From: Litchfieldia sinesaloumensis
GTDB lineage: Bacteria > Bacillota > Bacilli > Bacillales > Bacillaceae_L
Direction of reading: 5' to 3'
Length of the DNA: 64,000 nt
NCBI RefSeq assembly: GCF_900156865.1
Contig: NZ_LT732529.1
Span: 142,300 to 206,299, forward strand
Made by a program: the position numbers and the translations under genes. Positions 591 to 49,436 of the stretch are shown one piece after another. Numbering within the stretch: position 1 is the stretch's first letter; each line of letters starts with the position of its first letter. Below the pieces are notes generated by a model. That model worked only from the letters and a program-made list of their open reading frames with translations, made no database searches and was not told the DNA's origin.

Positions 591-1427
591 TTGGTAGAGG
601 AGTTATCAAAAAGATATAAAGTAATTGATATACTCAGTGTTCTAGAAATACCAAAATCTACATTTTATCGTTGGAAAAAGAAATACATTAATCGAGGGCC
701 AAAAAAATTAGAAAAGCTTATAATCGGCCTTTGCGAAGAGACTAAATATCATTATGGACATAGAAAAATTAAAGCTCTTCTAAAACAGCGTTATAACATT
801 AAGGTTAATCGCAAGACTGTACAAGTTATAATGCAAAAGTTCAATCTTCAATGTCAGATTAAAGTAAAAAGACAGAAACATATCAATGGCGAAAGTAATA
901 TTATTGTGGACAACATTCTTAACCGGAACTTTAAGGCAGAAAGACCAAATGAAAAGTGGGTAACTGACATTACATACCTACCATATGGCTCTTCTATGCT
1001 TTATGTATCAACAATAATGGATTTGTATAATAACGAGATAGTCGCTTATACGGTAAGTTCAGTACAAGATACGAATTTTGTATTGAGTACATTGAGAGAG
1101 GCCATAAAAAAGCGAAGACCTAAAAAAGTTCTATTGCACAGTGATCAAGGATCAGTATATACATCCTATGCATATCAAAATTTCGCAAAAGAAAAAGGCA
1201 TTATCACAAGCATGTCCCGTAAAGGAAACTGCCATGATAACGCCGTAATTGAATCCTTTCACTCCTCGCTAAAGTCGGAAGGATTCAAAGACCATAGAAG
1301 ATCTTCTATCACTAATATTAAAGTAATTGAGATTGTGAATCAATATATGTATTACTATAACGAAAAACGAATACAGGCAAAATTAAACTACCTGGCTCCA
1401 ATTGAATATGGACGCCAGGTAGCATAG
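591..1427 (+). CDS. IS3-family transposase OrfB, DDE integrase domain
   Basis: This is the catalytic part of the IS3 transposase, expressed as a fusion with OrfA by frameshifting. It shows an HTH_21-like segment (GHRKIKALLKQ region, residues about 50-90), then an rve integrase core with the DDE triad: Asp in WVTDITYLP, Asp in LLHSDQGSVY, and Glu in the CHDNAVIESFHSSLK block, followed by the usual Y-Y-N-x-x-R-I-Q motif. Length and order are normal for the family. The TAG stop overlaps the first base of the right inverted repeat. No frameshift or stop interrupts it. Confidence 0.93.
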   Translation: MVEELSKRYKVIDILSVLEIPKSTFYRWKKKYINRGPKKLEKLIIGLCEETKYHYGHRKIKALLKQRYNIKVNRKTVQVIMQKFNLQCQIKVKRQKHINGESNIIVDNILNRNFKAERPNEKWVTDITYLPYGSSMLYVSTIMDLYNNEIVAYTVSSVQDTNFVLSTLREAIKKRRPKKVLLHSDQGSVYTSYAYQNFAKEKGIITSMSRKGNCHDNAVIESFHSSLKSEGFKDHRRSSITNIKVIEIVNQYMYYYNEKRIQAKLNYLAPIEYGRQVA

Positions 1428-1459
1428 GTGTTTTTTCTAATTCCCATTTTGGCGGGTCA
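1427..1459. repeat. IS right inverted repeat
   Basis: Thirty-three bases ending GGCGGGTCA, complementary to the left end with a handful of mismatches. The first base is also the last base of the OrfB stop codon. Confidence 0.88.
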
Positions 1460-1505
1460 GTTCATATCATACAGATATCCTATCGTGGTTTTTATTTTTT
1501 TGTGA

Positions 1506-1751
1506 TTAAATAAAACTTCTAAGCCATGCAAAGGCTTCCTCTTCGTCAGGACCATCGATTCTAACAGTGATTGTCTGTCCTTCACGGATTCCTGCTCCCA
1601 TTAGTCCTAAAATACTTTTTGCATTATATGATCTATTTTTAAAATGAAATTCTACATCACTTGTAAATCGACTCAAGTTCTGAACTAATTCACCAGCCGG
1701 CTTTGCATGTAATCCTTCCTTAATAGTTACGGTAATTTCTTTTTCGATCAA
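1506..1751 (-). CDS. HPr-family phosphocarrier protein
   Basis: An 81-residue HPr fold protein. His15 lies in GLHAKPA, the site phosphorylated by PTS enzyme I, and Ser46 lies in AKSILGLMG, the site phosphorylated by HPr kinase. Both landmarks of Gram-positive HPr are therefore present, unlike Crh, which has Gln at position 15. It is divergent from glpK with about 157 bp between the starts. HPr(His-P) activates GlpK in Firmicutes, so the pairing makes sense. It is not next to an enzyme I gene, so it is either a second HPr paralogue or a displaced ptsH. ATG start behind a AAGGAG site. Confidence 0.85.
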   Translation of the reverse strand: MIEKEITVTIKEGLHAKPAGELVQNLSRFTSDVEFHFKNRSYNAKSILGLMGAGIREGQTITVRIDGPDEEEAFAWLRSFI

Positions 1752-1857
1752 ATCATCCCACTCCTTAAAGAGGTAATTTTAATGGACCATTACTACATTT
1801 ATTCTGGAAATGTATTTTTAGACCTAAAATTACAGACCATTTGCAGTAGCGAAAAAT

Positions 1858-1872
1858 ATGTAAGCGTGTTAA
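1858..1872 (+). promoter_or_regulatory. Weak cre-like site before glpK
   Basis: ATGTAAGCGTGTTAA matches the CcpA cre pattern WTGNAANCGNWNNCW at most positions but misses the late W and C. The position, just upstream of glpK, fits catabolite repression; the match itself is weak. Confidence 0.3.
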
Positions 1873-1896
1873 TTTAATGTAATAAGAGAGTTCTAA

Positions 1897-3399
<1,503 letters not shown>

Positions 3400-3447
3400 A
3401 AATTATGCTATTATAGAGATAAGTTAATTATTCGGTAGGAGATTTGG

Positions 3448-3505
3448 AGAGACCGCAGGAGCCATTGTCACGATGTGAACAATGTCTTTTGTGGTCTCTT
3501 TTTTC
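3448..3505 (+). terminator. glpD leader terminator / likely GlpP antitermination target
   Basis: AGAGACCGCA (3448-3457) pairs with TGTGGTCTCT (3490-3499), with an inner CATTGT/ACAATG stem (3463-3468 with 3479-3484) and a T-run from 3499. It sits between the glpK stop and the glpD ribosome site. In B. subtilis the antiterminator GlpP controls a leader terminator at this place. The hairpin is seen; GlpP control is inferred from the family. Confidence 0.75.
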
Positions 3506-3530
3506 TATCACTTTAAAGGAGTGGGGTTTT

Positions 3531-5201
3531 ATGTCACAGTTTTCCAGCTTAGATCGAGATTCAATTTTAGCTGACATGGAAAAGGAAGTTCATGACTTAT
3601 TTATTATAGGTGGTGGGATTACAGGTGCTGGAATTGCACTTGATGCTACTAGCCGTGGTTTGAAAACAACTCTTGTTGAGATGCAGGACTTTGCAGCTGG
3701 AACATCCAGTCGCTCCACTAAACTTGTGCACGGTGGCCTACGCTATTTAAAACAATTTGAAGTAGGTTTAGTAGCCGAGGTAGGTAAAGAAAGAGCTATT
3801 GTTTATGAAAATGGTCCACATGTAACAACCCCAGAGTGGATGCTCTTACCCCTACATAAGGGTGGGACGTTTGGGAAATTTTCAACATCAATTGGCCTTC
3901 GTGTATATGACTTTCTAGCTGGTGTAAAAAGATCAGAGAGACGTTCGATGTTGAATGTGGAGCAAACGCTAGCTAAAGAACCACTCATTAAAAAAGATGG
4001 CCTAAAAGGCGGCGGGTATTATGTAGAGTATCGAACGGACGATGCTCGTTTAACGATTGAGGTCATGAAAAAGGCAGTTGATAAAGGTGCGAAAGCGGTC
4101 AATTATGCCAAGGTGGAATCGTTCATTTATGAAAATGAAAAGGTTAAGGGAGTAAAAGTAGTAGACGTACTAACAGGAAAAGAATATCAAATCTATGCTA
4201 AAAAAATCGTTAATGCTACAGGGCCTTGGGTTGATAAGATGAGGGAAGCAGACTCTTCAAAAAAGGGGAAAGTCCTTCGCTTAACTAAAGGTGTCCACAT
4301 TGTAATTGATCAATCAAAGTTCCCACTAAAACAAGCGGTCTACTACGATACTCCTGATGGACGAATGGTGTTTGCAATTCCTCGAGACGGAAAAACATAC
4401 GTGGGAACGACGGATACATTTTACGACAAAGACACTGCGCATCCAACAGTAACGGTAGAGGACCGAGAGTATTTAATTAAGACAATTAACTATATGTTCC
4501 CAGATGTAGATGTGAAGGATTCTGATATTGAATCAAGCTGGGCTGGTTTACGCCCTTTGATTTATGAAGAAGGAAAAGATCCGTCTGAAATTTCACGTAA
4601 AGATGAAATCTGGGTATCGGATTCAGGTTTGATTACCATAGCAGGTGGAAAATTAACGGGTTATCGCAAAATGGCTGAAATCGTCGTAGACAAAGTAGGG
4701 AAGCTTTTAGAAGAGGAAGGGGAAGCTGTACTCAAACCTTGCCAAACCAAAAATATTCCGATATCAGGTGGAAACGTCGGTGGATCGAAAAAATTTCCAT
4801 TGTTTGTGGAAAGTAAGGTCGAAGAACTAGTGAGTGAATTTCAGCTAACTCATGAAGACGCTGAAAGGCTCACTCGTTTATATGGATCAAATATTGAGTT
4901 GGTAAAAGGAATCATGCAAGACTATAGGGATCAAGCACATAAAACAGCTCTCTCATTACCTGTACTTGCGGCTTTGGAATATGGAATTCAATATGAAATG
5001 GTGACAAAGCCAATTGACTTCCTCATTCGACGTACAGGAGCAATGTTTTTTAATATAGCATGGGTTAACAAATGGAAAGAAGAGATTGTTGCTTATATGG
5101 CTGTAAAGTTTAATTGGACTGAAGATGAAAAGCGAGGTTACGAAGCCGAAGTCGAATCCTATATCAAAGTAGCGACCGAGGCCAGTGAAAGGGACATGTA
5201 A
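3531..5201 (+). CDS. glpD: Aerobic glycerol-3-phosphate dehydrogenase
   Basis: GlpD oxidises glycerol-3-phosphate to dihydroxyacetone phosphate at the membrane and passes electrons to menaquinone. The FAD-binding dinucleotide fold [10 protein letters not shown] lies at about residues 25-35, followed by the [17 protein letters not shown] block typical of the family and an ATGPWVD motif mid-protein. A C-terminal DAO_C-like domain carries the [13 protein letters not shown] stretch. I chose ATG 3531, preceded by AAAGGAGTGG, giving 556 aa, the normal length; the longer upstream frame runs through the leader hairpin and is not credible. It follows glpK and is probably controlled by leader antitermination. 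Confidence 0.97.
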
Positions 5202-25366: not shown

Positions 25367-25987
25367 TTAGGCGTTTCTCATAATAATCGTTTCAAGTGTA
25401 TCTGCAACGTCTTCACAGGAATCTGATACGCCTTCGAGAATCTCGTATATCTCCTTAATTTGAATAATTTTTATAGGATCAGTTACATTTTGAAAAAGTT
25501 GTTTTAATGAAATACGAAAAATCTCATCACATTGCGATTCATAGTCATTGATTTTAATCGTATGTTGCCGTATCTCTAATAGCTTTTTTGAAGACAGAAG
25601 CTCAATTGCTTTAATAATTTCGATTGTGCTTTTATGAATGTGGTCAGCGTAAGAATTCATATATTCATCAGTTTCTGTCAACGAGTAAATTTCAAAGCGT
25701 TCCGCACATTGCTCCATTCCGTCCAAAACATCATCCATCTTGATGGCTAAATGTAAGATGTCCTCCCGTTCAATTGGAGTAATGAATGATTTATTTAACT
25801 CAGTTATTAAGCCATGGATTATTTTGTCCCCCTTCTTTTCATAGTTCTTCATTTCAAATGAAAATTCTTTCAGGTTAGAGACATTTTTAATTTTAAACTG
25901 AACAAAATAATCAGCTGCTTCTTTTAAATTTACGGAAATGGATGATAGTGCGTCAAAAAAAACATCTTTTTTCTTGTTTCCAAACAT
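25367..25987 (-). CDS. ykaA: DUF47 / PhoU-like protein
   Basis: A 206-residue all-helical protein of the DUF47 family, related to PhoU. It shows repeated E/D-x-x-D metal-type motifs (EREDILHLAIKMDDVLDGME; EGVSDSCEDVADTLE). Such proteins are encoded directly before PiT transporters and are thought to modulate phosphate uptake. Here it is co-transcribed with pit. ATG behind TGGAGGAT. Divergent from the 26.2-29.7 kb operon with a 200-bp shared upstream region. Confidence 0.92.
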   Translation of the reverse strand: MFGNKKKDVFFDALSSISVNLKEAADYFVQFKIKNVSNLKEFSFEMKNYEKKGDKIIHGLITELNKSFITPIEREDILHLAIKMDDVLDGMEQCAERFEIYSLTETDEYMNSYADHIHKSTIEIIKAIELLSSKKLLEIRQHTIKINDYESQCDEIFRISLKQLFQNVTDPIKIIQIKEIYEILEGVSDSCEDVADTLETIIMRNA

Positions 25988-26103
25988 AGTGTTTAATCCT
26001 CCAGCAAAAATAACTTAACACACGATTGAATTTCAAAATGTTCACATGTGTTTAGGTGTAAAACTTATTGTTTTAGTATCTATAGAAAATTCAGGGAATA
26101 TAC

Positions 26104-26131
26104 TTGAAATTTATCTATTATCGTGTAAAAT
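26104..26131 (+). promoter_or_regulatory. Promoter of the DUF3419 operon
   Basis: TTGAAA (26104-26109), 16-nt spacer, TAAAAT (26126-26131). The -10 lies inside the first palindromic operator. Confidence 0.55.
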
Positions 26132-26136
26132 TACAC
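26123..26136. promoter_or_regulatory. Palindromic operator O1 of the DUF3419 operon
   Basis: GTGTAAAATTACAC: arms GTGTAA / TTACAC with a 2-bp centre. It covers the proposed -10 box, so a bound protein would repress. No regulator gene adjoins. Confidence 0.65.
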
Positions 26137-26149
26137 TAAAGAGAAAATG

Positions 26150-26163
26150 GTGTAATTTTACAC
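26150..26163. promoter_or_regulatory. Palindromic operator O2 of the DUF3419 operon
   Basis: GTGTAATTTTACAC is the exact reverse complement of O1, centred 27 bp downstream; both are followed by TAAAG. A further half-site GTGTAA lies at 26181-26186, just before the first start codon. Confidence 0.65.
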
Positions 26164-26188
26164 TAAAGGAATTGGCTGGTGTGTAAAG

Positions 26189-26926
26189 ATGTTAACTATA
26201 GAAATTTTGAACACTAGGGATGAACAATCAAAAACAAAAAAAGAAATCATTTCACTAGCAAGAAGGGTCAGCCAGATTGGGGAAAAGTACGTACACTCAA
26301 AACTTGAAATTTACGACCAAGTCATTTGCCTACGACGAAATCAAAAGCTATTGGCCGCTCAATTCGTTCAAAGCTTTGAACAGAATGGAGACTTTTTTGT
26401 ATACTTTGGACCTTTGTTTTCAAGAATGAGCTGTTTTCTTGAATTGTTTATGCAGTATTTATTTGTGGTAATGGCCGATAATCAAGAACGAAGAATTCAC
26501 CTACTTGCTGAAATTGAGAATCCAGAAGTGCTTTTGCTGTTTAAAGCCTTGTTTGAGGATAGGGCTTATCCAAAATTTATCAATTGTCCTGTCCCAAATG
26601 AAATAAAGGAAAAGGTTCATATTTTTTCAGAGAACCTCTCCCATATTCATGACCTTGATAGTGATCGTTTAACCTCAAAATCCATTGATTCGCTTTATCA
26701 AAAGCAGTCTATTCATAAAGAAATAGAGAATTGGTTGTATTCAAGAAAAATTGATTTATCACAATGTATGAATGTTGTACTGTACGCGACTATTCCGGAT
26801 ACACCAGATTTGCGCAAAGATTTCATTATGGAGCTAGAGCATGGAAGACAAAGGTTGGGGAATTGGAAGGATAGGAAAAACGAAGTGTTAGCTTTATTTG
26901 AAGGAGGAATCGTAAGTAATGTCTGA
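26189..26926 (+). CDS. Unknown protein, first gene of DUF3419/HDO operon
   Basis: A 245-residue soluble protein that I do not recognise. The N-terminal third alternates strands and helices (VICLRRNQKLLAAQFVQSF, then GDFFVYFGPLFSR) in a way that could be a diverged GNAT-like fold, but no acyl-CoA loop is clear. The C-terminal third is helical and charged. It overlaps the next gene by 8 nt, so translation is coupled. ATG start; upstream ribosome site is weak (AAAGGAATTGG is 15 nt off). Its fixed place in the operon suggests a role in the same pathway. Confidence 0.82.
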   Translation: MLTIEILNTRDEQSKTKKEIISLARRVSQIGEKYVHSKLEIYDQVICLRRNQKLLAAQFVQSFEQNGDFFVYFGPLFSRMSCFLELFMQYLFVVMADNQERRIHLLAEIENPEVLLLFKALFEDRAYPKFINCPVPNEIKEKVHIFSENLSHIHDLDSDRLTSKSIDSLYQKQSIHKEIENWLYSRKIDLSQCMNVVLYATIPDTPDLRKDFIMELEHGRQRLGNWKDRKNEVLALFEGGIVSNV

Positions 26927-27992
26927 GATTTTTTTTTCACAGATTAGGGAAGATAGCTTAGTAGAAAGAGAGATTTCAAGTTTAGTGATACCTAAGAAAG
27001 TTCTTGTAATTGGCTCTGGTGGCTGTACAGCTTTTTCCATTTTGGATGATTCGGTTGACCAGGTTATCTGTGTAGATGTCAATCTCGCCCAATGTGCTTT
27101 AATTGAGTTAAAGAAGGCAGCTATAAAGCGTTTGTCGTTGGATGAATATCTTGCTTTTATCGGTGAAACTCCATGTGAAAATCGGTTAGGAATTTATCAG
27201 GAGTTAGCGAATGAACTTCCTGGTTACGTTCAAGAATTTTGGACGACACGTAATCAAGATCTTGACTTAGGAATTAATCAATGTGGAGTAAATGAACGTT
27301 TTTATCGTTTTATAGGAGAATCTATTTGCCGGAATATATACGATGAAACCGTTTGGAATGAATTATTTGCTGCAAAAAGTCTAGAGGAACAGCATGCATT
27401 TTATCATCAGTATTTAACCACTATCGAATGGAGAACAGTTGCCCAACTATTATTGAGTAAAACGACACATCTTCAATTCTTTCCTGCGTTCATGTTTGCT
27501 AATGCACGTGAGAACGATTTTGGGAATTTCTTTTTGAGCCAGTTTGAGAAGGAAGTAAAAACAAAACCGATTCACTCTAATTATTTTCTAAGCCAAATCT
27601 TGTTTTCTACCTATTTGTATGAACAGAACGAGGGTGTTCCGTTTTACCTAACTGAAGAAGGATATGTAGCAGCCAAAAGAAATATTACTAAACTTGTAAT
27701 CCATCCATTGAGTATTCAGGAGCTACTATTTAAGGAAGGTTCCATTGATGCTTTTTATTTGTCTAATGTATTTGACTGGGCAGATGAGAAAGGAAAAGAA
27801 GCGATTTGTAACGGGATATTACGCTCAAAATCTGAGAATGCAGTCGTATTGTTTCGAAACATGCTTAGTACGAGTCAACTGCCATCTAGTTTTATGAGTA
27901 AATTCAGCATTAATGAAGAATTATCTAGACGGTGTGAAAAGCTAGAGAGATCCATGTTATATCAAAAAATCACAGTAGGGAAGTTTCTATGA
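26919..27992 (+). CDS. DUF3419 family, BtaA-like SAM 3-amino-3-carboxypropyl transferase
   Basis: A 357-residue protein with the features of DUF3419/BtaA enzymes, which transfer the 3-amino-3-carboxypropyl group of S-adenosylmethionine (BtaA makes the head group of betaine lipids from diacylglycerol). The SAM loop is VLVIGSGGCTAFSIL (about 28-42), followed by VDVNLAQCALIELKKAAIKRL (about 51-71), the D-x-N-x-x-Q-x-x-L-x-E-L-K motif of the family, and a C-terminal block IDAFYLSNVFDWADEK. No BtaB methyltransferase is present, so the acceptor need not be diacylglycerol. It overlaps its neighbours on both sides (8 nt and ATGA). ATG behind GAAGGAGGAA. Family call is good; product is inference. Confidence 0.82.
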   Translation: MSEIFFSQIREDSLVEREISSLVIPKKVLVIGSGGCTAFSILDDSVDQVICVDVNLAQCALIELKKAAIKRLSLDEYLAFIGETPCENRLGIYQELANELPGYVQEFWTTRNQDLDLGINQCGVNERFYRFIGESICRNIYDETVWNELFAAKSLEEQHAFYHQYLTTIEWRTVAQLLLSKTTHLQFFPAFMFANARENDFGNFFLSQFEKEVKTKPIHSNYFLSQILFSTYLYEQNEGVPFYLTEEGYVAAKRNITKLVIHPLSIQELLFKEGSIDAFYLSNVFDWADEKGKEAICNGILRSKSENAVVLFRNMLSTSQLPSSFMSKFSINEELSRRCEKLERSMLYQKITVGKFL

Positions 27993-29029
27993 CCTATCAA
28001 TTTTTAGAACTTGATGAATCATTTGAGGAACAATTATTACGTTTAGCTTCAAGAACAAATACAGGTAGCGATCTCTTTTATGTTGACCGCTCACCTCATT
28101 TTTTTCGATTATCAGATGAATTCGGAATGACAAAGCATTTCGGGTTATTTAGGGAAAATGAACTAATCGGGTGTGTCGCGGTAAGTCAGCAACAGCGGGT
28201 AATTGATGGTACTTGTGAAAGAGTATTTTACTTAAATGATTTAAGGCTACACCCAGATTACCATCGGACGTTTGCCTATTATCGTCTTGCAGAAAATTTA
28301 CTATCATTCTATCGAAATGAAGATACCGTAAAATGGATGTTTTCAACGGTTCTTGACAGTAACACAAATAAATCATCGATGATAAAGGGAAATCAGCTCC
28401 TTCCAGGAGGTGTTGAAATTGGCAAGACTACACATATTGGTGTCCCGATGTTCATGAATTACCGAAAACACAAACAAAAGTCATACAACGAACATTTAAG
28501 TGTTATTGAGATTGACGGGGAAGAGGCTTGGCAGGTTTATCAAAAACGAATGACGTTTAAATCATTTGCCCCATGTGATAAGGACCTTTTTATGAAAGAA
28601 AATGGTGTGTTTTTAGTCATAAGAAATGATAGGAAAGAAGACCTGGCGGTGTGTAAGCTTGTGGACCAAAGTGATGCTAGGAAACTTCGGCTCTCTGACA
28701 AACTTCCAATCGCGTTTAAATTGGTGAATTTTCTTTGTAGGGGTGTTGTTTGCCCACCATTACCAGATAAAGGAGACCTTTTTCGTCATGGTTACATGGC
28801 GTATTTCATGGCCAAGGAAAACCCACTACGTTATCGAGATGAATTTATTGCTTATATACAAAAAACTTATAAGCATCGATTCACATATTTATTTTACGGG
28901 GCCAGTGCAGAGGATAGCCAACGTTACCGAAGCAATCTATTAACGATTAAACTTTCATCAACGACGTATGCTTATGGAGATATTCCAATAAGTCTTGCAA
29001 TGGATTTTCATGAATTAACACTAATTTAA
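27989..29029 (+). CDS. GNAT-like acyltransferase (extended)
   Basis: A 346-residue protein. The first half looks like a GNAT domain: GLFRENELIGCVAVS strand pair, then VFYLNDLRLHPDYHRTFAYYRLAENLL, matching the beta4/alpha3 motif A region that binds acyl-CoA, though the usual Q/R-x-x-G-x-G/A loop is degenerate (Y-H-R-T-F-A-Y). The second half (about 170-346) may be a second, decayed GNAT repeat. ATG overlaps the upstream TGA (ATGA), so it is co-translated with the DUF3419 gene. Substrate unknown; N- or O-acylation of the DUF3419 product is a plausible guess. Confidence 0.72.
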   Translation: MTYQFLELDESFEEQLLRLASRTNTGSDLFYVDRSPHFFRLSDEFGMTKHFGLFRENELIGCVAVSQQQRVIDGTCERVFYLNDLRLHPDYHRTFAYYRLAENLLSFYRNEDTVKWMFSTVLDSNTNKSSMIKGNQLLPGGVEIGKTTHIGVPMFMNYRKHKQKSYNEHLSVIEIDGEEAWQVYQKRMTFKSFAPCDKDLFMKENGVFLVIRNDRKEDLAVCKLVDQSDARKLRLSDKLPIAFKLVNFLCRGVVCPPLPDKGDLFRHGYMAYFMAKENPLRYRDEFIAYIQKTYKHRFTYLFYGASAEDSQRYRSNLLTIKLSSTTYAYGDIPISLAMDFHELTLI

Positions 29030-29042
29030 GGAGGAAGTATCA

Positions 29043-29723
29043 ATGGAGAAATTTATCGAGCTTAAGAAAGTGACAGACAGTCTATTTGGTGAAAAAAAGA
29101 TTGAAGAACATCCATTATTTACAGCAATGAAAAATAAGGAGTTTTCTGAAGAACAACAAAAGAAAATTGCCCTTCAAATTTATCATGTGGTTCTTTACTT
29201 CCCTCGTTTTTTATCGGCAATTTTAACAAATATGCCAGATTATAGAATGAGAATGCCGCTGGTGGAGAATTTATTTGAAGAGCATGGGAAAATGAATGAA
29301 AAATATGTTCATAGTCAGACGTACAAGCAATTTTTAAAGGGAATTGGGATTACTGAACAGGAAATTAACGAAAGTGAGCCAAGTATTCCGGTCATTGCAT
29401 ACAATCGAGCTATAACTGATTTATGTCTCCACTATCCCTACTTAGAGGGATTAGCAGCACTTGGAGTGATTGAAGAAATTGTTGCAAGGGTTTCACCATT
29501 GGTAGGAAAATTTGCAAAGAATACCTATGGGAGTGAGAACCAATCGCTTATTCATTTCACCGACCATGAGGTGCTTGATGTTCAACATGCCAATGAAATA
29601 TATGAAGTAGTGGCCCTAGGTTATGAAGGAGATCAAAAACGGATGATTGAAACAGGTTTGAAATTTGGTATGTATTATCACTCAAGAATGTACACTGACA
29701 TCCTTGAAGATGTTCGTAACTAA
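29043..29723 (+). CDS. Heme-oxygenase-like diiron oxidase (HDO) family protein
   Basis: A 226-residue all-helical protein of the TenA/PqqC/heme-oxygenase-like superfamily. Ligands of the diiron (HDO) branch, as in CADD or UndA, are visible: Glu and His in NLFEEHG ... KYVHSQ, Glu in the YLEGLAALGVIEE helix, and H-x3-D-x2-H in HEVLDVQH. HDO enzymes carry out O2-dependent C-C or C-N bond chemistry on amino acids or fatty acids. It is 13 nt after the GNAT gene behind AAGGAGGAAG and ends the operon. The ligand set argues for a metal oxidase rather than TenA or PqqC. Substrate unknown. Confidence 0.82.
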   Translation: MEKFIELKKVTDSLFGEKKIEEHPLFTAMKNKEFSEEQQKKIALQIYHVVLYFPRFLSAILTNMPDYRMRMPLVENLFEEHGKMNEKYVHSQTYKQFLKGIGITEQEINESEPSIPVIAYNRAITDLCLHYPYLEGLAALGVIEEIVARVSPLVGKFAKNTYGSENQSLIHFTDHEVLDVQHANEIYEVVALGYEGDQKRMIETGLKFGMYYHSRMYTDILEDVRN

Positions 29724-29803
29724 ATGGTAAAAAAATATATTAACTGGTATCCCCCTAAAAAATAATCCCATTCGAATTCATATATATAGTGCTATTTTAT
29801 CAA

Positions 29804-29915
29804 AGTTTTTGATGTCTAGCTCCAGGCGCCATCGGCTCTCGGGTCTAAGCCAATCGCTTCGGAAGGTTGGGCTTGTCTTATGCTTGTCGCCGATAAGCAG
29901 GCGCATTCCGCATTT
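29804..29915. repeat. Dispersed intergenic repeat R, copy 1
   Basis: Starts AGTTTTTGATGTCTAGCTC, continues AGGCGCCATCGGCTC and CAATCGCTTCGGAAGG, and ends near GCAGGCGC. It shares these blocks with 49509-49640. It is more GC-rich than its flanks and contains internal inverted repeats. It forms the upstream region of the class A PBP gene, whose ribosome site follows directly. I recognise this type from many Bacillus intergenic regions. Confidence 0.75.
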
Positions 29916-29934
29916 CTATCAGGAGGGCATTTGA

Positions 29935-31974
29935 ATGGGAAAGAACTTCATGAAGACTTTGTCCGAGGTTGGGAAAGTAAAAATCATACTGTTGATTGGT
30001 TTGCTATTTATTTTATTTGTTGCAATCGGAATGAACTTGTATATCAATTCTCGTGATGTAAGTGCATTAAATAATCCATTGCCAGAGCCAACTATTATTT
30101 ATGATAAAAATGGGGAGATTGCCAGCAAAGTTTCAGGAACTAAAATTGAAGCTGTCCGGTACGAAAATATCCCACCACATGTGGTCAATGCTATTATCGC
30201 CATAGAAGACCGTCGATTTTATAAACATCCGGGTGTTGATTATATTGGTATTTTTCGTGCTCTATTTCGGAACATAAAAGCGGGCGGGATTGTTGAGGGT
30301 GGAAGTACGATTACCCAGCAATTAACAAAGAATGTCTTTCTAACACATGAGCAAACACTGAAGCGAAAAATAGATGAATTCTTCATTGCTCAAAAAATAG
30401 AGCGTACATTTTCAAAAGAAAAAATCATGGAAATGTATCTCAACCAAATCTATTTTGGTGAAGGCGCATGGGGGATTAAAAATGCTGCTAGAACCTACTT
30501 TGGAAAAGAGGTTCATGACTTAACCGTAAGTGAAGGGGCGATTCTTGCTGGGTTAATTAAGGCTCCTTCGTCCATGAATCCTTTAATAGATATGGAAAAG
30601 TCGTTTAATCGAAGAGACCTTGTATTAGCGATGATGGAGGAACAAGGCTTCCTTACTTCAGCTCAAGTGAAAGATGCAAAGGAACAGGAAATTGTATTCA
30701 AAGGGCGCCAACTTGATCCATACAAAGGAAAGTATCCTTATTATGTTGATTATATAATTGAAGAGGCTATTGAGAACTATGGACTCACCCAAAATGAAGT
30801 ATTATCTGGTGGCTTGGAAATTTATACAGAGCTTGATCCTCATATGCAAGAATCGATGGAAAATGTGTATAAAAACGATAGTCTTTTTCCGGAGAGTACA
30901 TCTGATCAATTACTTCAGAGTGGTGCTATTTTAGTAGATCCAAAGACTGGCGGGGTAAGTGCGCTAGTGGGAGGACGTGGTGACCATGTATTTCGTGGCT
31001 TTAATCGTGCGACTCAGTTAAAGAGACAGCCAGGTTCTACCATTAAACCACTGTCTGTGTATACGCCTGCATTGGAACATGGTTATAGTATTTATGATGT
31101 CCTACCGGATACACCGATGAGCTTCAATGGCTACGAGCCTAAAAATGTGTCTGGAAACTTTAAAGGCAGTGTAACAATCTATGATGCAGTGAGGAATTCA
31201 GATAATGTTCCAGCGGTATGGCTGTTAAATGAAATTGGACTTAAAACAGGTATTGATGCTGTCAATAAATTTGGTCTTCCGATTACAGAAACGGATCATA
31301 ACCTAACTCTTGCTCTCGGAGGTTTGGATGGGGGGGTGGCCCCGATTCACATGGCAGAAGCTTATACAACATTTCCAAATGAGGGAAGTAAGACGAAGGC
31401 ACATGCCATTTCAAAAATTGTTGATACAAGTGGAGAGGTCATTGCTGAATGGAATGAAGAACCTGAACAAATTACGAGCCCTGAAGTTGCAAAAAGAATG
31501 ACATTTTTACTCAAGGGAGCGGTTGAAAATGGAACTGGCCGCCATGCAAGAATTGAAGGTAGAGAAGTTGCTGGGAAGACTGGTTCAACTCAGGTCACTA
31601 TCGATGGAATAAATGGATCAAAGGATATATGGATGGTTGGATATACACCTGAGTTAGTAGGTGCAGTATGGCTTGGATATGATAAAACAGATGCAAATCA
31701 TTATGTAACAACTTCCAGTTCAACAGCTGCAACTATTTTTAAAGAAATCATGCAGCAGTCCTTAAGTAATACTCCAGCTAGTTCATTCAATCTCCCAGCC
31801 TATCAGCCTCCTGTTCAAAAGAAGGAGAATGTGCGGAAACAGAACAATGGTAGGGAAGAAAGGGATGATAAGAAAGGGCAGAAAGAGAAGTGGAAAGAGG
31901 AAAGAAAGAAACAGAAAGAAGCAGAAAAAAGGCGTAAAAAGGAAGAAAAAAAGAGAAAAAAAGACGATGACTAA
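29935..31974 (+). CDS. pbpF: Class A penicillin-binding protein (PbpF-like)
   Basis: A 679-residue bifunctional peptidoglycan synthase anchored by an N-terminal helix (about 16-38). The glycosyltransferase domain has catalytic Glu91 in AIEDRRFYKHPGVD and GGSTITQQLTKN; the transpeptidase has Ser368 in PGSTIKPL (SxxK), an S-D-N motif in VRNSDNVPAVW and KTGST near 547. After residue about 630 a highly charged Lys/Glu/Arg tail follows. Size and arrangement match the PBP1A/2C group; B. subtilis PbpF is the nearest by context (yhgE neighbourhood) but paralogue identity is not certain. ATG behind AGGAGGG. Confidence 0.9.
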   Translation: MGKNFMKTLSEVGKVKIILLIGLLFILFVAIGMNLYINSRDVSALNNPLPEPTIIYDKNGEIASKVSGTKIEAVRYENIPPHVVNAIIAIEDRRFYKHPGVDYIGIFRALFRNIKAGGIVEGGSTITQQLTKNVFLTHEQTLKRKIDEFFIAQKIERTFSKEKIMEMYLNQIYFGEGAWGIKNAARTYFGKEVHDLTVSEGAILAGLIKAPSSMNPLIDMEKSFNRRDLVLAMMEEQGFLTSAQVKDAKEQEIVFKGRQLDPYKGKYPYYVDYIIEEAIENYGLTQNEVLSGGLEIYTELDPHMQESMENVYKNDSLFPESTSDQLLQSGAILVDPKTGGVSALVGGRGDHVFRGFNRATQLKRQPGSTIKPLSVYTPALEHGYSIYDVLPDTPMSFNGYEPKNVSGNFKGSVTIYDAVRNSDNVPAVWLLNEIGLKTGIDAVNKFGLPITETDHNLTLALGGLDGGVAPIHMAEAYTTFPNEGSKTKAHAISKIVDTSGEVIAEWNEEPEQITSPEVAKRMTFLLKGAVENGTGRHARIEGREVAGKTGSTQVTIDGINGSKDIWMVGYTPELVGAVWLGYDKTDANHYVTTSSSTAATIFKEIMQQSLSNTPASSFNLPAYQPPVQKKENVRKQNNGREERDDKKGQKEKWKEERKKQKEAEKRRKKEEKKRKKDDD

Positions 31975-44377: not shown

Positions 44378-45577
44378 TTAAGTAGTTATAGTTGCTTTCA
44401 TTATAAGGAGTTTGGTTAAATTTTCAAGCCCTTTTTTACGGATGTGGGTCTCGTCGAATACCATCGGCTTTGAGTTAATCTCGTAAATAAAGAGTCCCCC
44501 GTCAACACTGCGACCAAGGTCAATTGAAAATTCTCCGACAAATTCTTCAATTTGTTTGTTTAATTCTTTTCCAATAATATAGACGAGTCGATTTAAAAGT
44601 GCTTCATCAAACCGTGGACGAACCCTTTCATATGGAATAATAGTGCCACCGTTTGGTACGTGAGTTGTAACTTCGCTTTCACCACTTAATCGAACTCCAA
44701 TTCCGCTGATGGAATGTCCAGTACTGTCATAATCATAATGGCATAATAACCGTAAGTCATACCGTTTTCCATCATATGTGTCGTATGGAATGGCTTTTTG
44801 TAAAATAAAGTCCTCTTGAGCAAATTCTTCATCATTCTTCTCCCAAAATGAAGCGAGAGTTCGATAAATTTGTTTCCCATTTGGTGTTTCCACGATGATT
44901 TTATTTCGTTCCTTTTTTAGCCTGTAAATGCCAATACCTTTGGATCCACTAGCTCTTTTCAAATAAATGTCCTGATGTTTTATTAACATTGATTCTAGGT
45001 CGCTTAATTGCGTAAGTAGAATGGTCTCTGGTAGAAAGGAAATAAGAGATTGATTTCTTTTCAAAATTTGATAAACATTCCATTTGGAAAAGAAGTATGG
45101 ATTAAAAAAGGGAATCCCTTTCATTTTTAAAAAGGAAACCACAGCATTAAAAAGTTGGGTTTCCTCAATTGGGCGATAGGGTATACGGTTATAAACTGTA
45201 GTAGGTAGAGGTACTTCTAGTTTTATCCATTTCATTAACGGTTTATAAAAGGTAAAGCACTGGACAGGGTGTTCCTGTAATGAATGTGGTGTAATAATTA
45301 TTCCTAGTGCACCACGATCTTGTAAAGCTAAAACAATACTTTTTAAGTTTTGTAAGTTACCGATAAATGTATTGTCTGAGGATGGTGCAGTTAAAATTCC
45401 AATTAAAGGTCCAACACGGTTGCCATCTCTATTTACAGGAAAGGGGAGCGAATTGTTTTGCCTGCCCGCCACATAAGTTAAGATAGTATCCTCTTTTCCG
45501 AAAAGAAGGCCTTTTGGCTCTTCACACTGGTACCATTCTCGTCTTGCGATGTTGTAATAAATGGTACACATGTTCAT
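44378..45577 (-). CDS. YheC/YheD-family ATP-grasp protein (copy 4)
   Basis: A 399-residue ATP-grasp protein of the YheC/D spore-coat-associated family. The N-terminal region has GPLIGILTAPSS (the family's entry motif) and NRIPYRPIE; the ATP-grasp part has IYLKRASGSKGIGIYRL (Lys and Gly-rich loop, about 207-223), RYDLRLLCHYD, and metal-binding FIYEINSKP near the C-terminus. The reaction is unknown; ATP-grasp enzymes join a carboxylate to an amine or thiol. ATGA overlap with the upstream copy shows one operon. Confidence 0.9.
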   Translation of the reverse strand: MNMCTIYYNIARREWYQCEEPKGLLFGKEDTILTYVAGRQNNSLPFPVNRDGNRVGPLIGILTAPSSDNTFIGNLQNLKSIVLALQDRGALGIIITPHSLQEHPVQCFTFYKPLMKWIKLEVPLPTTVYNRIPYRPIEETQLFNAVVSFLKMKGIPFFNPYFFSKWNVYQILKRNQSLISFLPETILLTQLSDLESMLIKHQDIYLKRASGSKGIGIYRLKKERNKIIVETPNGKQIYRTLASFWEKNDEEFAQEDFILQKAIPYDTYDGKRYDLRLLCHYDYDSTGHSISGIGVRLSGESEVTTHVPNGGTIIPYERVRPRFDEALLNRLVYIIGKELNKQIEEFVGEFSIDLGRSVDGGLFIYEINSKPMVFDETHIRKKGLENLTKLLIMKATITT

Positions 45578-46932
45578 TTAAATACTTCCTCAGGGGTTTT
45601 GATGGTTGTTTCAGTTAAATAGACAGCATATTGCAATGGAAGCCTGCTAGAGAGTTTATCATATTTTCTGAGCTTTGGATGTGAAAAGATGGAGCGGCCA
45701 GGCTTAGAATTTGCTTCAAAAAGCCAGACACTTCCATTTTTATCTAGCCCTAAATCAAATCCAAGTTCACCAATATGTCCTTTTTGTCTTGAATCGATGA
45801 CCTCACTTAATAACAATGCTGCTTGTTTTAGGGAATCGGCTATTTTTCTGCATTCCTCGATATCATGGAATAGTTCAGTAAGTGTCCGAACAACTCCTCC
45901 GTTATTAAGGTGTGTAGTCACACTTCCTCGCCCAGAGATTTTACCCGCGATTACACTTACTTGCCAAACGCCTTTTTCATCTTTGTTTGTATGAACACGA
46001 AAATCAATTGATTTATGATCATGACGAATCAAATGAATTCCCTGTTGAACGATATAATGTTCCAATCGTTTGTTACGAAAATGAGTGTTGATGAACGATT
46101 CGATGGTAGAGAATCGCTGTAGACGATTATTTCCATTCTCGTCACGGTAACGACAGAAATAAGAGTCCGTTTCTCGGTCAAATAAAACTTGGTATATTCC
46201 TAAACCAAGGCTTCCGTTTGCAGGTTTGATATAGACATGTTGATATTTTGAAAGCATCCGTTCAATCAAGGAAAAGGTTGGATTTTTATGAGTTTCGGGT
46301 AAATACGTTGCAACACGGTGGTCACCCTCTAATAGTTGATGGATTTCCCATTTGTTAAAAAATCCAGGGTTAAACCATGGAATTAAGTATTCTTGATGTA
46401 GACGTTCTTTAATTTCACGTAAGGTTTTATGTTTTTCTGTTCGACGGTTTGGGAGGCGATCATATACAACATTAGGAAATGGAATTTCAATTGTTTCCCA
46501 ACCATTATGACTATGAAATAATCCATGGATTGTACCTTTATCCCAATCAATATGTTTCGCACCAAAAATAAACACATACGCACCGACAACTTTTTCCTGT
46601 GCCAAAAGTTTTGCAAAGAATAAGGTACGTTCTCCAATTGGTCGAATCATCGATTCACTAAATCCAGCAGTGAAAATTCCAACCAAAGGACCGATATACA
46701 TATTCCCATCATGGACAAAAACTTGCGTTGTACTTGTGTAAGGAATTTTTAGAGATTCAAAGATGTCTTCAGATATTTTGAGTTCTTGTTTATCACTCTG
46801 AATGACCTCGCATTCGCAGAAGGAGGTACCAAAATATATATGCTTAATTGTTTTTTTATATTGGATGGTTCTAGGCATATACACTTTTCCGAGTTCCTGT
46901 TTCGTAATAGTGAGTGGTAGTGGTGTTCGCAT
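45574..46932 (-). CDS. yheD: YheC/YheD-family ATP-grasp protein (copy 3, YheD-like)
   Basis: A 452-residue member. An N-terminal extension of about 90 residues precedes GPLVGIFTAGFS; then NRLPNRRTE, YIKPANGSLGLGIYQV (ATP lysine and loop), DFRVHTNKD, GRGSVTTHLNNGG and WLFEANSKPGR (metal ligands). Spore-coat YheD of B. subtilis has the same length (about 453 aa). A fragment of repeat R lies in the short gap upstream. Start ATG with AAGGAGC upstream. Confidence 0.92.
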   Translation of the reverse strand: MRTPLPLTITKQELGKVYMPRTIQYKKTIKHIYFGTSFCECEVIQSDKQELKISEDIFESLKIPYTSTTQVFVHDGNMYIGPLVGIFTAGFSESMIRPIGERTLFFAKLLAQEKVVGAYVFIFGAKHIDWDKGTIHGLFHSHNGWETIEIPFPNVVYDRLPNRRTEKHKTLREIKERLHQEYLIPWFNPGFFNKWEIHQLLEGDHRVATYLPETHKNPTFSLIERMLSKYQHVYIKPANGSLGLGIYQVLFDRETDSYFCRYRDENGNNRLQRFSTIESFINTHFRNKRLEHYIVQQGIHLIRHDHKSIDFRVHTNKDEKGVWQVSVIAGKISGRGSVTTHLNNGGVVRTLTELFHDIEECRKIADSLKQAALLLSEVIDSRQKGHIGELGFDLGLDKNGSVWLFEANSKPGRSIFSHPKLRKYDKLSSRLPLQYAVYLTETTIKTPEEVFK

Positions 46933-46952
46933 TTTTACAGCTCCTTTTTAAT

Positions 46953-46986
46953 GTGTCCAGCTCCGGGGCGCCTTGCACTTTTTTAA
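46953..46986. repeat. Repeat R fragment, copy 3
   Basis: TGTCCAGCTCCGGGGCGCC, matching the 5' part of repeat R, inserted in the 50-bp gap between two ATP-grasp genes. Confidence 0.5.
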
Positions 46987-48062
46987 GTAGAAAGTTTTGA
47001 CTGTAAATAGTGACAATAGTGTAAGGGTGTTGTATAGAGAGTATCTTCAATTGATGGGTCAGTATCTAAAATTACCTTTCTACCAGGTTTTGAATTTGTA
47101 TCTAAGATCCAAAGGGCTCCGTCCTTTGTAAGACCCAAATCTATGCCCATTTCGAATAGAGGTTCGAAGTGTTCTTCTAAAACATTGGGCAGCCTATTAC
47201 TAATTGTATGAATGTTTTCTAAAAGTAATTGCTTATGAGAGATAGACATTTTTTCTGTCCAGGTATGAAAAGAATGAGTCTCACCGCCGCCACCTAAATT
47301 TGAGATAAGGTGACCAGGTAATCCAAGACGAATCCCACGGCCTTGTTCAACCCATTTTCCTTGGCCATTCTTTTGAAGCAAAATCCGGATATCAAATGGG
47401 CGGTTGTCTTCGTCGTGTAGTTGTAAGTATTCTTGTGATAGATACGGCTGTATAGAAACATTGGCATCAAGCCATTTTTTTAAATCACGTCTGGTTGTAA
47501 ACTGTGTTTTATTTAGTTGCTTTGATTCCTTGTAGATAACCTCAACGTAGTTACGGTGTAGAAATAGTCCAATTATGCCTCTTCCCATTGAGCCTTTTTC
47601 AGGTTTAAGGATAAGTTGATGCTTTTTCATCAAGGTTCGTAGAATAGCAGAGGAGGAGTGAGCTTGCTCGGTAAAAGGGATGTAGGGTGAAAGTATTTCA
47701 TCTTGGCACAACACATTGTAAATCTCCCATTTATTTGGAAGACCTTGACCGAGAAATACCGTATCTGGTCGACTTTTCAACCAGTTCATGATGGGTTGAC
47801 TTTTAATAGATAACTCATCACTCGTGTAGAAACATCGATCATATAAAAACGTCGGAATGTCAAATATACATTGTTCCCACTTATTCGTTGTATGGTTGTA
47901 TTGTTCACCGCGGATCATCTCCGAGGATGGTTCAATGGATGTTGGTGTAAATCTATAAAGCTGAATACCTAACTCTGGTGCCCGTTTTGCTATTTCAGTT
48001 GCGTACCCTCTCTCCTGATTTGGGTAAATTGTAACAAAACCCAATGGAATCATAGGACCCAC
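46983..48062 (-). CDS. yheC: YheC/YheD-family ATP-grasp protein (copy 2, YheC-like)
   Basis: A 359-residue member, about the length of B. subtilis YheC (363 aa). It starts directly with PLGFVTIYPNQERGYATE, lacking the N-terminal extension; LILKPEKGSMGRGIIGLF is the ATP lysine/loop, FDIRILLQKNG and WILDTNSKPGR follow. Fifteen bp downstream of copy 1. ATG behind AAGGAGTGG. Confidence 0.92.
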   Translation of the reverse strand: MGPMIPLGFVTIYPNQERGYATEIAKRAPELGIQLYRFTPTSIEPSSEMIRGEQYNHTTNKWEQCIFDIPTFLYDRCFYTSDELSIKSQPIMNWLKSRPDTVFLGQGLPNKWEIYNVLCQDEILSPYIPFTEQAHSSSAILRTLMKKHQLILKPEKGSMGRGIIGLFLHRNYVEVIYKESKQLNKTQFTTRRDLKKWLDANVSIQPYLSQEYLQLHDEDNRPFDIRILLQKNGQGKWVEQGRGIRLGLPGHLISNLGGGGETHSFHTWTEKMSISHKQLLLENIHTISNRLPNVLEEHFEPLFEMGIDLGLTKDGALWILDTNSKPGRKVILDTDPSIEDTLYTTPLHYCHYLQSKLST

Positions 48063-48077
48063 TCCTTTCTTATCAAT

Positions 48078-49436
48078 TTAAGTCAACTCGGAAAGATAGA
48101 CACAATGTTGCAATATTGCTTTTGCACTTGGACGAATTCTAGTCGATACTCCATTCTGTTCTTGGTTTTTTGAAGGTTTTGTATTGACTTCAATAATGGT
48201 TGGTTTGCCATTTTCATCAAGTGCAAGGTCAATCCCAAGTTCAGCAAAAATGCCATCTGCTGTTCCGTCGATAATCTCTGCCACCTCAATTGCTAAATCC
48301 TTTAATAATCTTTTAATATGAGGAATTTGTTTTACTTCAAAGTTCTTTATAAGGACTTCATGAACCTTTTTAATTTCTCCTCCTCTTGCAAGATTAGAAA
48401 CAAATTGGTCTTTTGAAGAAACTCGTGCGACAGCTGAGGTTATTTGCCACTTTTCACTTAATTGTTTTTGACAAAGTAAACGAAAATCCAAGGGCTTTTC
48501 CTCATACAATAGGAGGGGAATACATTGCTGAACAATGAATGTATGTTGTTTCAACCTTGATAAAAGAGACTGAAATAGGGAGGCAAAACTTTGATGAACA
48601 GTCTCAATTTCGCCAGAAAACGTTGTGTAATCTAAAAAGTATGAGTCATCCTCTAGTTTATGAATCCGGAAAATATTTCTCCCCTGACTGCCATGAACAG
48701 GTTTTACAAATACACACTGATAATTCTCAATCATGTCAAAGAGAACATCCTTACCAGTTAAAACAATAGTATCAGGCATATACGTTTGTAAATGTTCATG
48801 TTCCTTTAATATTTCATACACTTCCCACTTATTTAAAAAGTGATCATTAAAATAGGGAATACGGTTAATCTGCAACTCATTTGTAAAGTCAGTAAAACGT
48901 AGGGACTGCTCTCGTTTACGCGAGTGAATCCGATTGTGGACTACTTGTGGGTATGGGACAATCGACTTTTTCCATGTACCATCGAAAAAGACATACCCCA
49001 TGTGATCATAGAATGTATTTAACGAGAATACATAAAAAAGTACTCCAATTTCATTTGCATATTTCGATAATTCCTCGCAAAATTCCTCTATAGAACCTAA
49101 TGATATGCGACTTTTTTGCTCGGAAACATCTGTTAATAAACCGACGACTGGACCAATTTCTAATTTGCTATTTCCTTTTTTTTGAAGAGTAATTGAAAAA
49201 GTCTCAGCTGGAAGCTGTAATTCACGTAGAACACTTTCACTACATTGAATAACAGGTTCGCTCTCATTAATAGATACGATTTCAACGTTAACACTATTCC
49301 TACTGCAGTGTATTTCAATACTCTGTTGTTTTTGTAGGCTTAATTTCTTAAAAATAATTTCACTCATTTTTATTTGAAAGGGGGAGACCTGCTTATTTGT
49401 AACAGGAATTACCTCGATAAGAATTTTTTCCGTCAT
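48078..49436 (-). CDS. YheC/YheD-family ATP-grasp protein (copy 1, YheD-like)
   Basis: A 452-residue member and first gene of the four-copy operon. Extended N-terminus (residues 1-100), then GPVVGLLTDVSEQ, NRIHSRKRE, VFVKPVHGSQGRNIFRI, DFRLLCQKQ and TIIEVNTKPSKN. Parts of the first 100 residues are poorly conserved compared with copy 3. ATG at 49434-49436 with a weak ribosome site. The divergent yheB gene lies beyond repeat R copy 2. Confidence 0.9.
   Translation of the reverse strand: MTEKILIEVIPVTNKQVSPFQIKMSEIIFKKLSLQKQQSIEIHCSRNSVNVEIVSINESEPVIQCSESVLRELQLPAETFSITLQKKGNSKLEIGPVVGLLTDVSEQKSRISLGSIEEFCEELSKYANEIGVLFYVFSLNTFYDHMGYVFFDGTWKKSIVPYPQVVHNRIHSRKREQSLRFTDFTNELQINRIPYFNDHFLNKWEVYEILKEHEHLQTYMPDTIVLTGKDVLFDMIENYQCVFVKPVHGSQGRNIFRIHKLEDDSYFLDYTTFSGEIETVHQSFASLFQSLLSRLKQHTFIVQQCIPLLLYEEKPLDFRLLCQKQLSEKWQITSAVARVSSKDQFVSNLARGGEIKKVHEVLIKNFEVKQIPHIKRLLKDLAIEVAEIIDGTADGIFAELGIDLALDENGKPTIIEVNTKPSKNQEQNGVSTRIRPSAKAILQHCVYLSELT

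Follow-up and report, generated by a model that had tools for sequence, protein, structure and literature searches.

A conserved four-gene operon of Bacilli encoding a DUF3419 protein, two GNAT-fold proteins and a putative diiron oxidase: a candidate biosynthetic unit for a small amino-acid-like compound

The operon and its four proteins

The window analysed here is a stretch of 64,000 nucleotides from Litchfieldia sinesaloumensis (contig NZ_LT732529.1, positions 142,300 to 206,299), and our subject is an operon of four genes on its plus strand. Gene 1 (26189..26926) encodes a single GNAT-fold protein of 245 aa; gene 2 (26919..27992) a BtaA-like DUF3419 protein of 357 aa, presumed to be an aminocarboxypropyl transferase that uses S-adenosylmethionine (SAM); gene 3 (27989..29029) a tandem GNAT-fold protein of 346 aa; and gene 4 (29043..29723) a haem-oxygenase-like diiron oxidase (HDO) of 226 aa and of the 3H/3C type. 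Genes 1 and 2 overlap by 8 nt and genes 2 and 3 by 4 nt, and a gap of 13 nt separates genes 3 and 4. Upstream, on the same strand, lies a promoter-like site (TTGAAA, a 16-nt spacer and TAAAAT; 26104..26131), which agrees with the consensus at 10 of 12 bases and is the best match in 25900-29950. Since such sites are about as common in shuffled sequence (16 observed in that interval against a mean of 14.0), the case for this one rests on its position.

The four genes are colinear and tightly spaced in 14 genomes from four families and three orders of Bacilli. These comprise eight of the nine genomes examined in the genus, gene 2 being found in the same eight, together with G021 from another family of the same order and G436, G664, G640, G688 and G655 from two other orders of the class. 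Where it could be measured, the spacing is -8 or -4 nt between genes 1 and 2, -4 or -10 nt between genes 2 and 3 and +5 to +16 nt between genes 3 and 4 (10 nt in loci L045 and L046); start codons in L045-L048 were partly set by homology, the mechanical open reading frames there running longer. The GC content of the operon differs from that of the flanking DNA by no more than about 4 points at the eight loci measured. Strong homologues of gene 3 (E < 1e-85) occur in 6 of 398 genomes of the class, with two further weak partial matches (1.2e-5 and 3.9e-4), and strong homologues of gene 4 (E < 1e-100) in 6 of 396, another 14 genomes giving matches from 1e-14 to 1e-10; the six genomes are the same for both genes, the two samples having been drawn alike, with the membership of each genome in both left unchecked. 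By group, gene 3 was found in one of seven genomes of the family of G021, in four of 39 of the order of G436 (with one weak match in addition) and in one of 42 of the order of G655, and these counts by family, order and class indicate an operon that is widespread but patchy. The ratio of non-synonymous to synonymous substitution rates (dN/dS) was 0.07-0.31 in 12/12 comparisons (three pairs of genus members for each of four genes) and lowest, at 0.07-0.09, for gene 4, the most conserved of the four. Recurrence of one gene order at unrelated loci of bacilli that are only distantly related points to a real pathway.

Gene 2 matches DUF3419 (PF11899) at E 3e-47, with 162 bits against a Pfam cut-off of 28.2. 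Its GSGGC motif, D53-x-N55-x-A57-Q58 and E11-D12 are invariant in all 13 operon copies aligned, and E11, D12, G35, D53, Q58 and E63 are invariant across 10 DUF3419 proteins from three gene contexts, five of these proteins coming from two contexts other than the operon; GSGGC and A57 are invariant in the operon clade only. The conserved residues are presumed to form the SAM site. By sequence search no solved structure matched gene 2 at E 1, and profile comparison with the PDB returned only weak matches, to SAM-fold enzymes and over the first 118 residues: 2yx1, which we take to be the Trm5-like protein MJ0883, at E 0.044 (residues 18-118) and a spermidine synthase at E 0.11. In a tree, the 13 operon copies form a single clade with support of 99/99 on a long branch; because long branches meet there, as the tool warned, the deeper joins of the DUF3419 tree are unsure.

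Gene 4 matches Haem_oxygenas_2 (PF14518) in Pfam at E 8.6e-24 and carries H175-x3-D179-x2-H182. The full 3H/3C ligand set (E79 or E80, H90, E144, H175, D179 and H182) is invariant in 14/14 orthologues, the first ligand being given as either of two glutamates since alignment with CADD leaves the register uncertain. CADD is the closest solved relative (1rcw and 8va9; E 1.2e-20 by profile for 1rcw). According to section 4 of PMC13108848, 3H/4C HDO enzymes have an extra glutamate on an auxiliary helix; by our own reckoning, the short stretch between ligands 1 and 2 of gene 4 would leave no space for it. The same section puts the number of functionally validated HDOs at about a dozen and describes the substrates of characterised members as predominantly fatty or amino acids.

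No Pfam family matched gene 1 at E 1. Its AlphaFold2 model (predicted local distance difference test score, pLDDT, 89.6; predicted template modelling score, pTM, 0.89) adopts a GNAT fold, and the best Foldseek match is NatD (E 3e-6), followed by other GNATs. Gene 3 scores 20.0 bits against Acetyltransf_1 in Pfam, slightly below the cut-off of 20.7, and its model (pLDDT 83.8, pTM 0.84) is a tandem GNAT, with 2i00 as the best Foldseek match (E 1e-13) and N-myristoyltransferases and Eis2 next. GNAT proteins usually bind acyl-coenzyme A (acyl-CoA) through a loop with the motif R/Q-x-x-G-x-G/A. This loop is not present in either protein (alignments of 13 sequences for gene 1 and 14 for gene 3): gene 1 has Y-x-GPL-x-S where it is expected, and gene 3 has T/S-x-A/V in place of G-x-G/A, so that CoA as the donor is not assured. 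The idea that genes 1 and 3 arose by duplication was rejected, profile comparison detecting no relation between them (hhalign probability 0.6), and gene 3 had no match among plasmids.

The first-pass annotation of this DNA had described four coupled genes behind a single upstream promoter, with a BtaA-like gene 2, a GNAT-like gene 3 and an HDO with a diiron ligand set as gene 4, and in all of this it is borne out. Gene 1, which it had left unrecognised, can now be placed by its modelled fold.

Operators, a candidate regulator and the neighbourhood

Two operators, for which no strand was assigned, lie between the promoter-like site and gene 1 or overlap that site. Operator 1, GTGTAAAATTACAC (26123..26136), overlaps the -10 box, and operator 2, GTGTAATTTTACAC, lies at 26150..26163. 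The palindrome GTGTAAWWTTACAC is matched exactly at both sites in 8/8 operon-bearing members of the genus; in G009 (L012) the second copy has the sequence GTGTAAAATTACAC. No match to GTGTAAWWTTACAC arose in 100 shuffles of the window, and each of nine genus genomes holds two to seven copies, whereas the reversed pattern, used as a control, was found in none of eight of them and once in G008. Since operator 1 covers the -10 box in the window, repression is likely.

Twelve of the 19 copies of GTGTAAWWTTACAC outside the operon were inspected, the others being five extra copies in G010 and two in G012. Eight of the 12, from eight different genomes, immediately precede the gene of an XRE-type regulator of 152-159 aa, which stands beside a TauE-type gene; family membership was verified for a single regulator and a single TauE protein and judged by eye for the others. 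The remaining four share no neighbour. A close homologue of the XRE protein (E 5.6e-41 or better) occurs in 12 of 27 chosen genomes, and the box lies within 70 bp upstream of nine of these 12 (once with two mismatches), about 730 bp away in two and absent in one. Across operon loci, presence of the operator tracks that of a close XRE homologue. Both are found in the genus (8/8), in G021, where the operon has a box with one mismatch, and in G655, where an exact box lies 231 bp before the start used. In contrast, the four g156 operon loci have no box within two mismatches in the stretches examined, and their genomes lack a close XRE homologue. We regard this distantly encoded XRE protein as the likely regulator of the operon, predicted from these patterns to bind GTGTAAWWTTACAC; it would probably hold transcription down by binding the copy that covers the -10 box, and it would also bind upstream of the gene that encodes it. 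The XRE gene at G000:C3:2531709-2532170 (in L094) and its homologues in L105-L116 have an apparently self-regulating palindrome, with TauE and BioY genes near.

At all seven other loci of the genus, the four genes keep their order, with PiT on one side and the same gene for a penicillin-binding protein on the other, and PitA and its DUF47 partner adjoin the operon. In the 15-16 kb covered at each of the six operon loci beyond the genus, PiT and this penicillin-binding protein were both absent; the flanking genes scanned at three of the six are unrelated housekeeping genes or unmatched. Conversely, G008 is without the operon, yet it has PiT at the same place. The link with phosphate supply that the first-pass annotation had suggested from the adjoining PiT genes is thus rejected. 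In G008, a gene for an HpaB-type monooxygenase lies between the PiT and penicillin-binding protein genes (L134 2032-3477), the site of the operon in its relatives.

A role in anti-phage defence was also considered and set aside, the four proteins giving no PADLOC-DB match at E 0.01; among viral contigs, 115 stretches fitted the pattern and none was confirmed. Elsewhere in the window, on the minus strand at 44378-49436, are four consecutive long open reading frames that, by eye from the list of frames, presumably encode ATP-grasp proteins of the YheC/YheD type.

Proposed function and competing explanations

The tight coupling of the unit, the families or folds of its products, their conserved residues and the conserved operators were computed directly. 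We put at roughly 0.55 the probability that the operon is a dedicated pathway of Bacilli, patchily spread, for the biosynthesis of a small amino-acid-like compound. The best reading of the families is that the product would be an oxidised, probably acylated, aminocarboxypropyl compound. In such a pathway, the gene 2 protein would transfer the 3-amino-3-carboxypropyl group of SAM to an oxygen or nitrogen nucleophile, with methylthioadenosine leaving, and so make a non-standard amino acid. Acylation or aminoacylation of this compound, from a donor that need not be CoA, would fall to the GNAT-fold products of genes 1 and 3, and the HDO would carry out an O2-dependent oxidation, be it desaturation, C-C cleavage or N-oxygenation. 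The order of the steps, the substrate and the product are guesses.

Several observations weigh against this proposal. There is no exporter or resistance gene among the four genes, nor do they give any hint of the substrate. Lacking the CoA loop, the two GNAT-fold proteins may be non-catalytic, and the BtaA chemistry of gene 2 is read across from plasmid-borne DUF3419 proteins of other phyla at 22-27% identity. Two of the eight genus members with the operon have a disrupted gene, gene 1 being split into two open reading frames in G011 (L018 7553-8289) and gene 2 being out of frame close to its start in G010 (L016 7088-8160), which reflects either decay or assembly error. Finally, the XRE gene is also present in genomes not seen to carry the operon (G008, G013, G014, G015, G066, G624, G639 and G157), and the regulator must therefore have other duties.

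Given that gene 2 belongs to the family of BtaA and that the tandem fold of gene 3 resembles N-myristoyltransferases, the operon could instead build a lipid head group, with gene 2 acting on diacylglycerol or another lipid, the GNAT-fold proteins acylating the homoserine nitrogen as in ornithine lipids and the HDO hydroxylating or desaturating the product. However, no BtaB methyltransferase was found in the unit or among the scanned nearest neighbours at four loci (two neighbours had no Pfam match, and the whole genome was not searched), whereas a methyltransferase lies directly downstream of the DUF3419 gene, in a btaAB-like arrangement, at two of three annotated rhizobial plasmid loci (a fourth is without annotation). 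Gene 2 also sits in its own clade, set apart by long branches, and we consider a lipid pathway unlikely. For these two reasons, the missing BtaB and the separate clade, classical betaine lipid is likewise an unlikely product, as the first-pass annotation had judged. Hydroxamate siderophores combine N-hydroxylation with GNAT acylation, and the operon might by analogy make a metallophore, an aminocarboxypropylated amino acid of the kind of nicotianamine or staphylopine that carries an N-hydroxyl made by the HDO and a GNAT-added acyl group. Nicotianamine-type metallophores are indeed built by SAM aminocarboxypropyl transfer but, as far as the excerpted text of PMC10491745 goes, by enzymes that are not homologous to BtaA. 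With no transporter, opine dehydrogenase or condensation enzyme in the four-gene unit either, its flanks not being systematically annotated, we hold this explanation to be distinctly unlikely.

It is improbable that the target of the operon is a macromolecule (tRNA, rRNA or a protein) and not a free small molecule: aminocarboxypropylation of RNA is known (PMC10491745, in the part consulted), and the best profile match of gene 2, the weak and partial one to 2yx1, is in keeping with it, but the Pfam scan revealed no RNA-binding domain, and the patchy spread (strong gene 3 homologues in 6/398 class genomes) is unlike that of a core RNA modification. We think it very improbable that the genes are a passenger set, brought together by chance or hitch-hiking and sharing no pathway. 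The disrupted genes in two genus members would fit that explanation, whereas the constant gene order and similar overlaps at unrelated sites across three orders, the dN/dS of at most 0.31 in every comparison and the occurrence of strong gene 3 and gene 4 homologues in the same genomes speak against it. We give next to no credence to a role for gene 4 as a self-sacrificing p-aminobenzoate synthase like CADD, with the operon serving folate. Although CADD is its closest solved relative, the sacrificial Tyr27 is replaced by Phe (Ile in one) and Lys152 by Val (Ile in one) in 14/14 gene 4 orthologues, and gene 4 reaches 80 bits against the cut-off of 200 of the CADD model; because the sacrificial residues are missing, such a role is contradicted.

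If the operon does make a small amino-acid-like compound, DUF3419 would gain a role beyond betaine lipids and HDOs a new context. As the unit is small and stands behind one promoter, it could be expressed whole in B. subtilis, making the proposal directly testable. The first-pass annotation had called the pathway possibly undescribed, and the literature searched agrees, containing no description of the operon and nothing that pairs DUF3419 with 'heme oxygenase-like'. The co-occurrence of DUF3419 and HDO genes that it had suggested looking for elsewhere was found, in the same order, in another family of the order and in two other orders of Bacilli, and its other condition for refutation, a gene 2 protein lacking the SAM pocket, is not borne out as far as alignment of the conserved DUF3419 residues shows.

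Other gene contexts and comparison with known systems

DUF3419 is rare, scoring above the cut-off in 12 of 397 genomes of the order and 3 of 348 of the phylum. It has other neighbours elsewhere in the phylum. At L032 4100-9118 and L033 5869-10902, the DUF3419 gene lies between the gene of a 904-910 aa class-III aminotransferase protein and that of a Glu/Leu-type dehydrogenase (families by Pfam in L032 and by eye in L033; L034 has the dehydrogenase, but the contig end cuts the locus). The large protein of L032 is a class-III aminotransferase in its N-terminal part, and its C-terminal half has no Pfam match at 0.001. At L073 2270-6114 and L074 6882-10726, the gene of a 918-aa fusion, like HMG-CoA reductase and ecdysteroid kinase, directly precedes and overlaps the DUF3419 gene (fusion identified by Pfam in L073 and by eye in L074).

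DUF3419 and HDO genes also meet on the Deefgea piscis plasmid NZ_CP054144.1 (L129), where FeeM-like, HDO, DUF3419 and SpeD genes stand in a row at 999-3897. The FeeM match of the first gene is below the cut-off (E 0.0039), and this gene has no detectable relation to gene 1 or gene 3; the DUF3419 protein is related to gene 2 (E 3e-23) and the HDO marginally to gene 4 (E 0.005). The nearest plasmid relatives of the Deefgea HDO (about 38%) are in Pseudomonas and Agarilytica, behind GNAT-annotated or unnamed genes, with no annotated DUF3419 in the stretches read. By annotation, a gene labelled acetyltransferase/GNAT directly precedes the HDO gene both at L131 3114-8171, on a Pseudomonas coronafaciens plasmid that also has CoA-ligase-like, flavodoxin and EamA genes there, and at L132 4380-5681, on an Agarilytica plasmid.

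The Deefgea cluster resembles the Bacilli operon in its adjacent HDO and DUF3419 genes with a weak FeeM-match protein ahead, but differs in gene order and in having SpeD. It is probably a second, independent assembly, and the pairing of HDO with DUF3419 thus probably arose more than once, although descent of both from one old cluster is possible. Tentatively, and with less confidence than we place in the biosynthetic role of the operon itself, we suggest that DUF3419 proteins are general, non-lipid enzymes of SAM aminocarboxypropyl or aminopropyl donation and that their pairing with HDO and GNAT-fold proteins is a recurrent route, put together at least twice (in Bacilli and, with a SAM decarboxylase, in Deefgea), to a new class of oxidised amino-acid natural products. 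The SpeD cluster is possibly an aminopropyl version of the same idea. In this respect it recalls the tailoring of microcin C, a pathway that to our knowledge has no HDO. SAM aminocarboxypropyl transfer is found in small-molecule pathways, and in microcin C it becomes aminopropyl transfer after decarboxylation, with MccD performing the transfer and MccE the decarboxylation, so that the likeness lies in SAM-derived donation within a natural product and in SpeD standing beside DUF3419; MccD, in contrast, is not homologous to BtaA (PMC10491745, as excerpted). The oxyvinylglycine (FVG) pathway was considered as a further relative and dropped, gvgF encoding a carbamoyltransferase and 'heme oxygenase' not occurring in the portion of PMC8064604 consulted.

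With BtaA itself, gene 2 shares the Pfam family and length class, a likeness judged by the DUF3419 family rather than by direct comparison with a characterised BtaA sequence; the operon differs in having no BtaB partner in the unit, and its gene 2 clade lies apart from the rhizobial DUF3419 proteins with a methyltransferase neighbour. Gene 3 is matched structurally over its full length by the tandem GNATs (Enterococcus 2i00, N-myristoyltransferase and Eis2), although these are only 9-14% identical to it among the 50 matches listed and gene 3 is without the CoA loop motif. CADD, or 4-aminobenzoate synthase (1rcw, 8va9 and 9pj4), has the HDO family and the 3H/3C ligand set in common with gene 4 and differs at its sacrificial residues. 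Gene 4 scores 38 bits against a model cut-off of 500 for the 4-chloro-allylglycine synthase BesC (7twa), but the two share the HDO family and a weak profile match (E 1.3e-6), and BesC is an HDO that acts on an amino acid.

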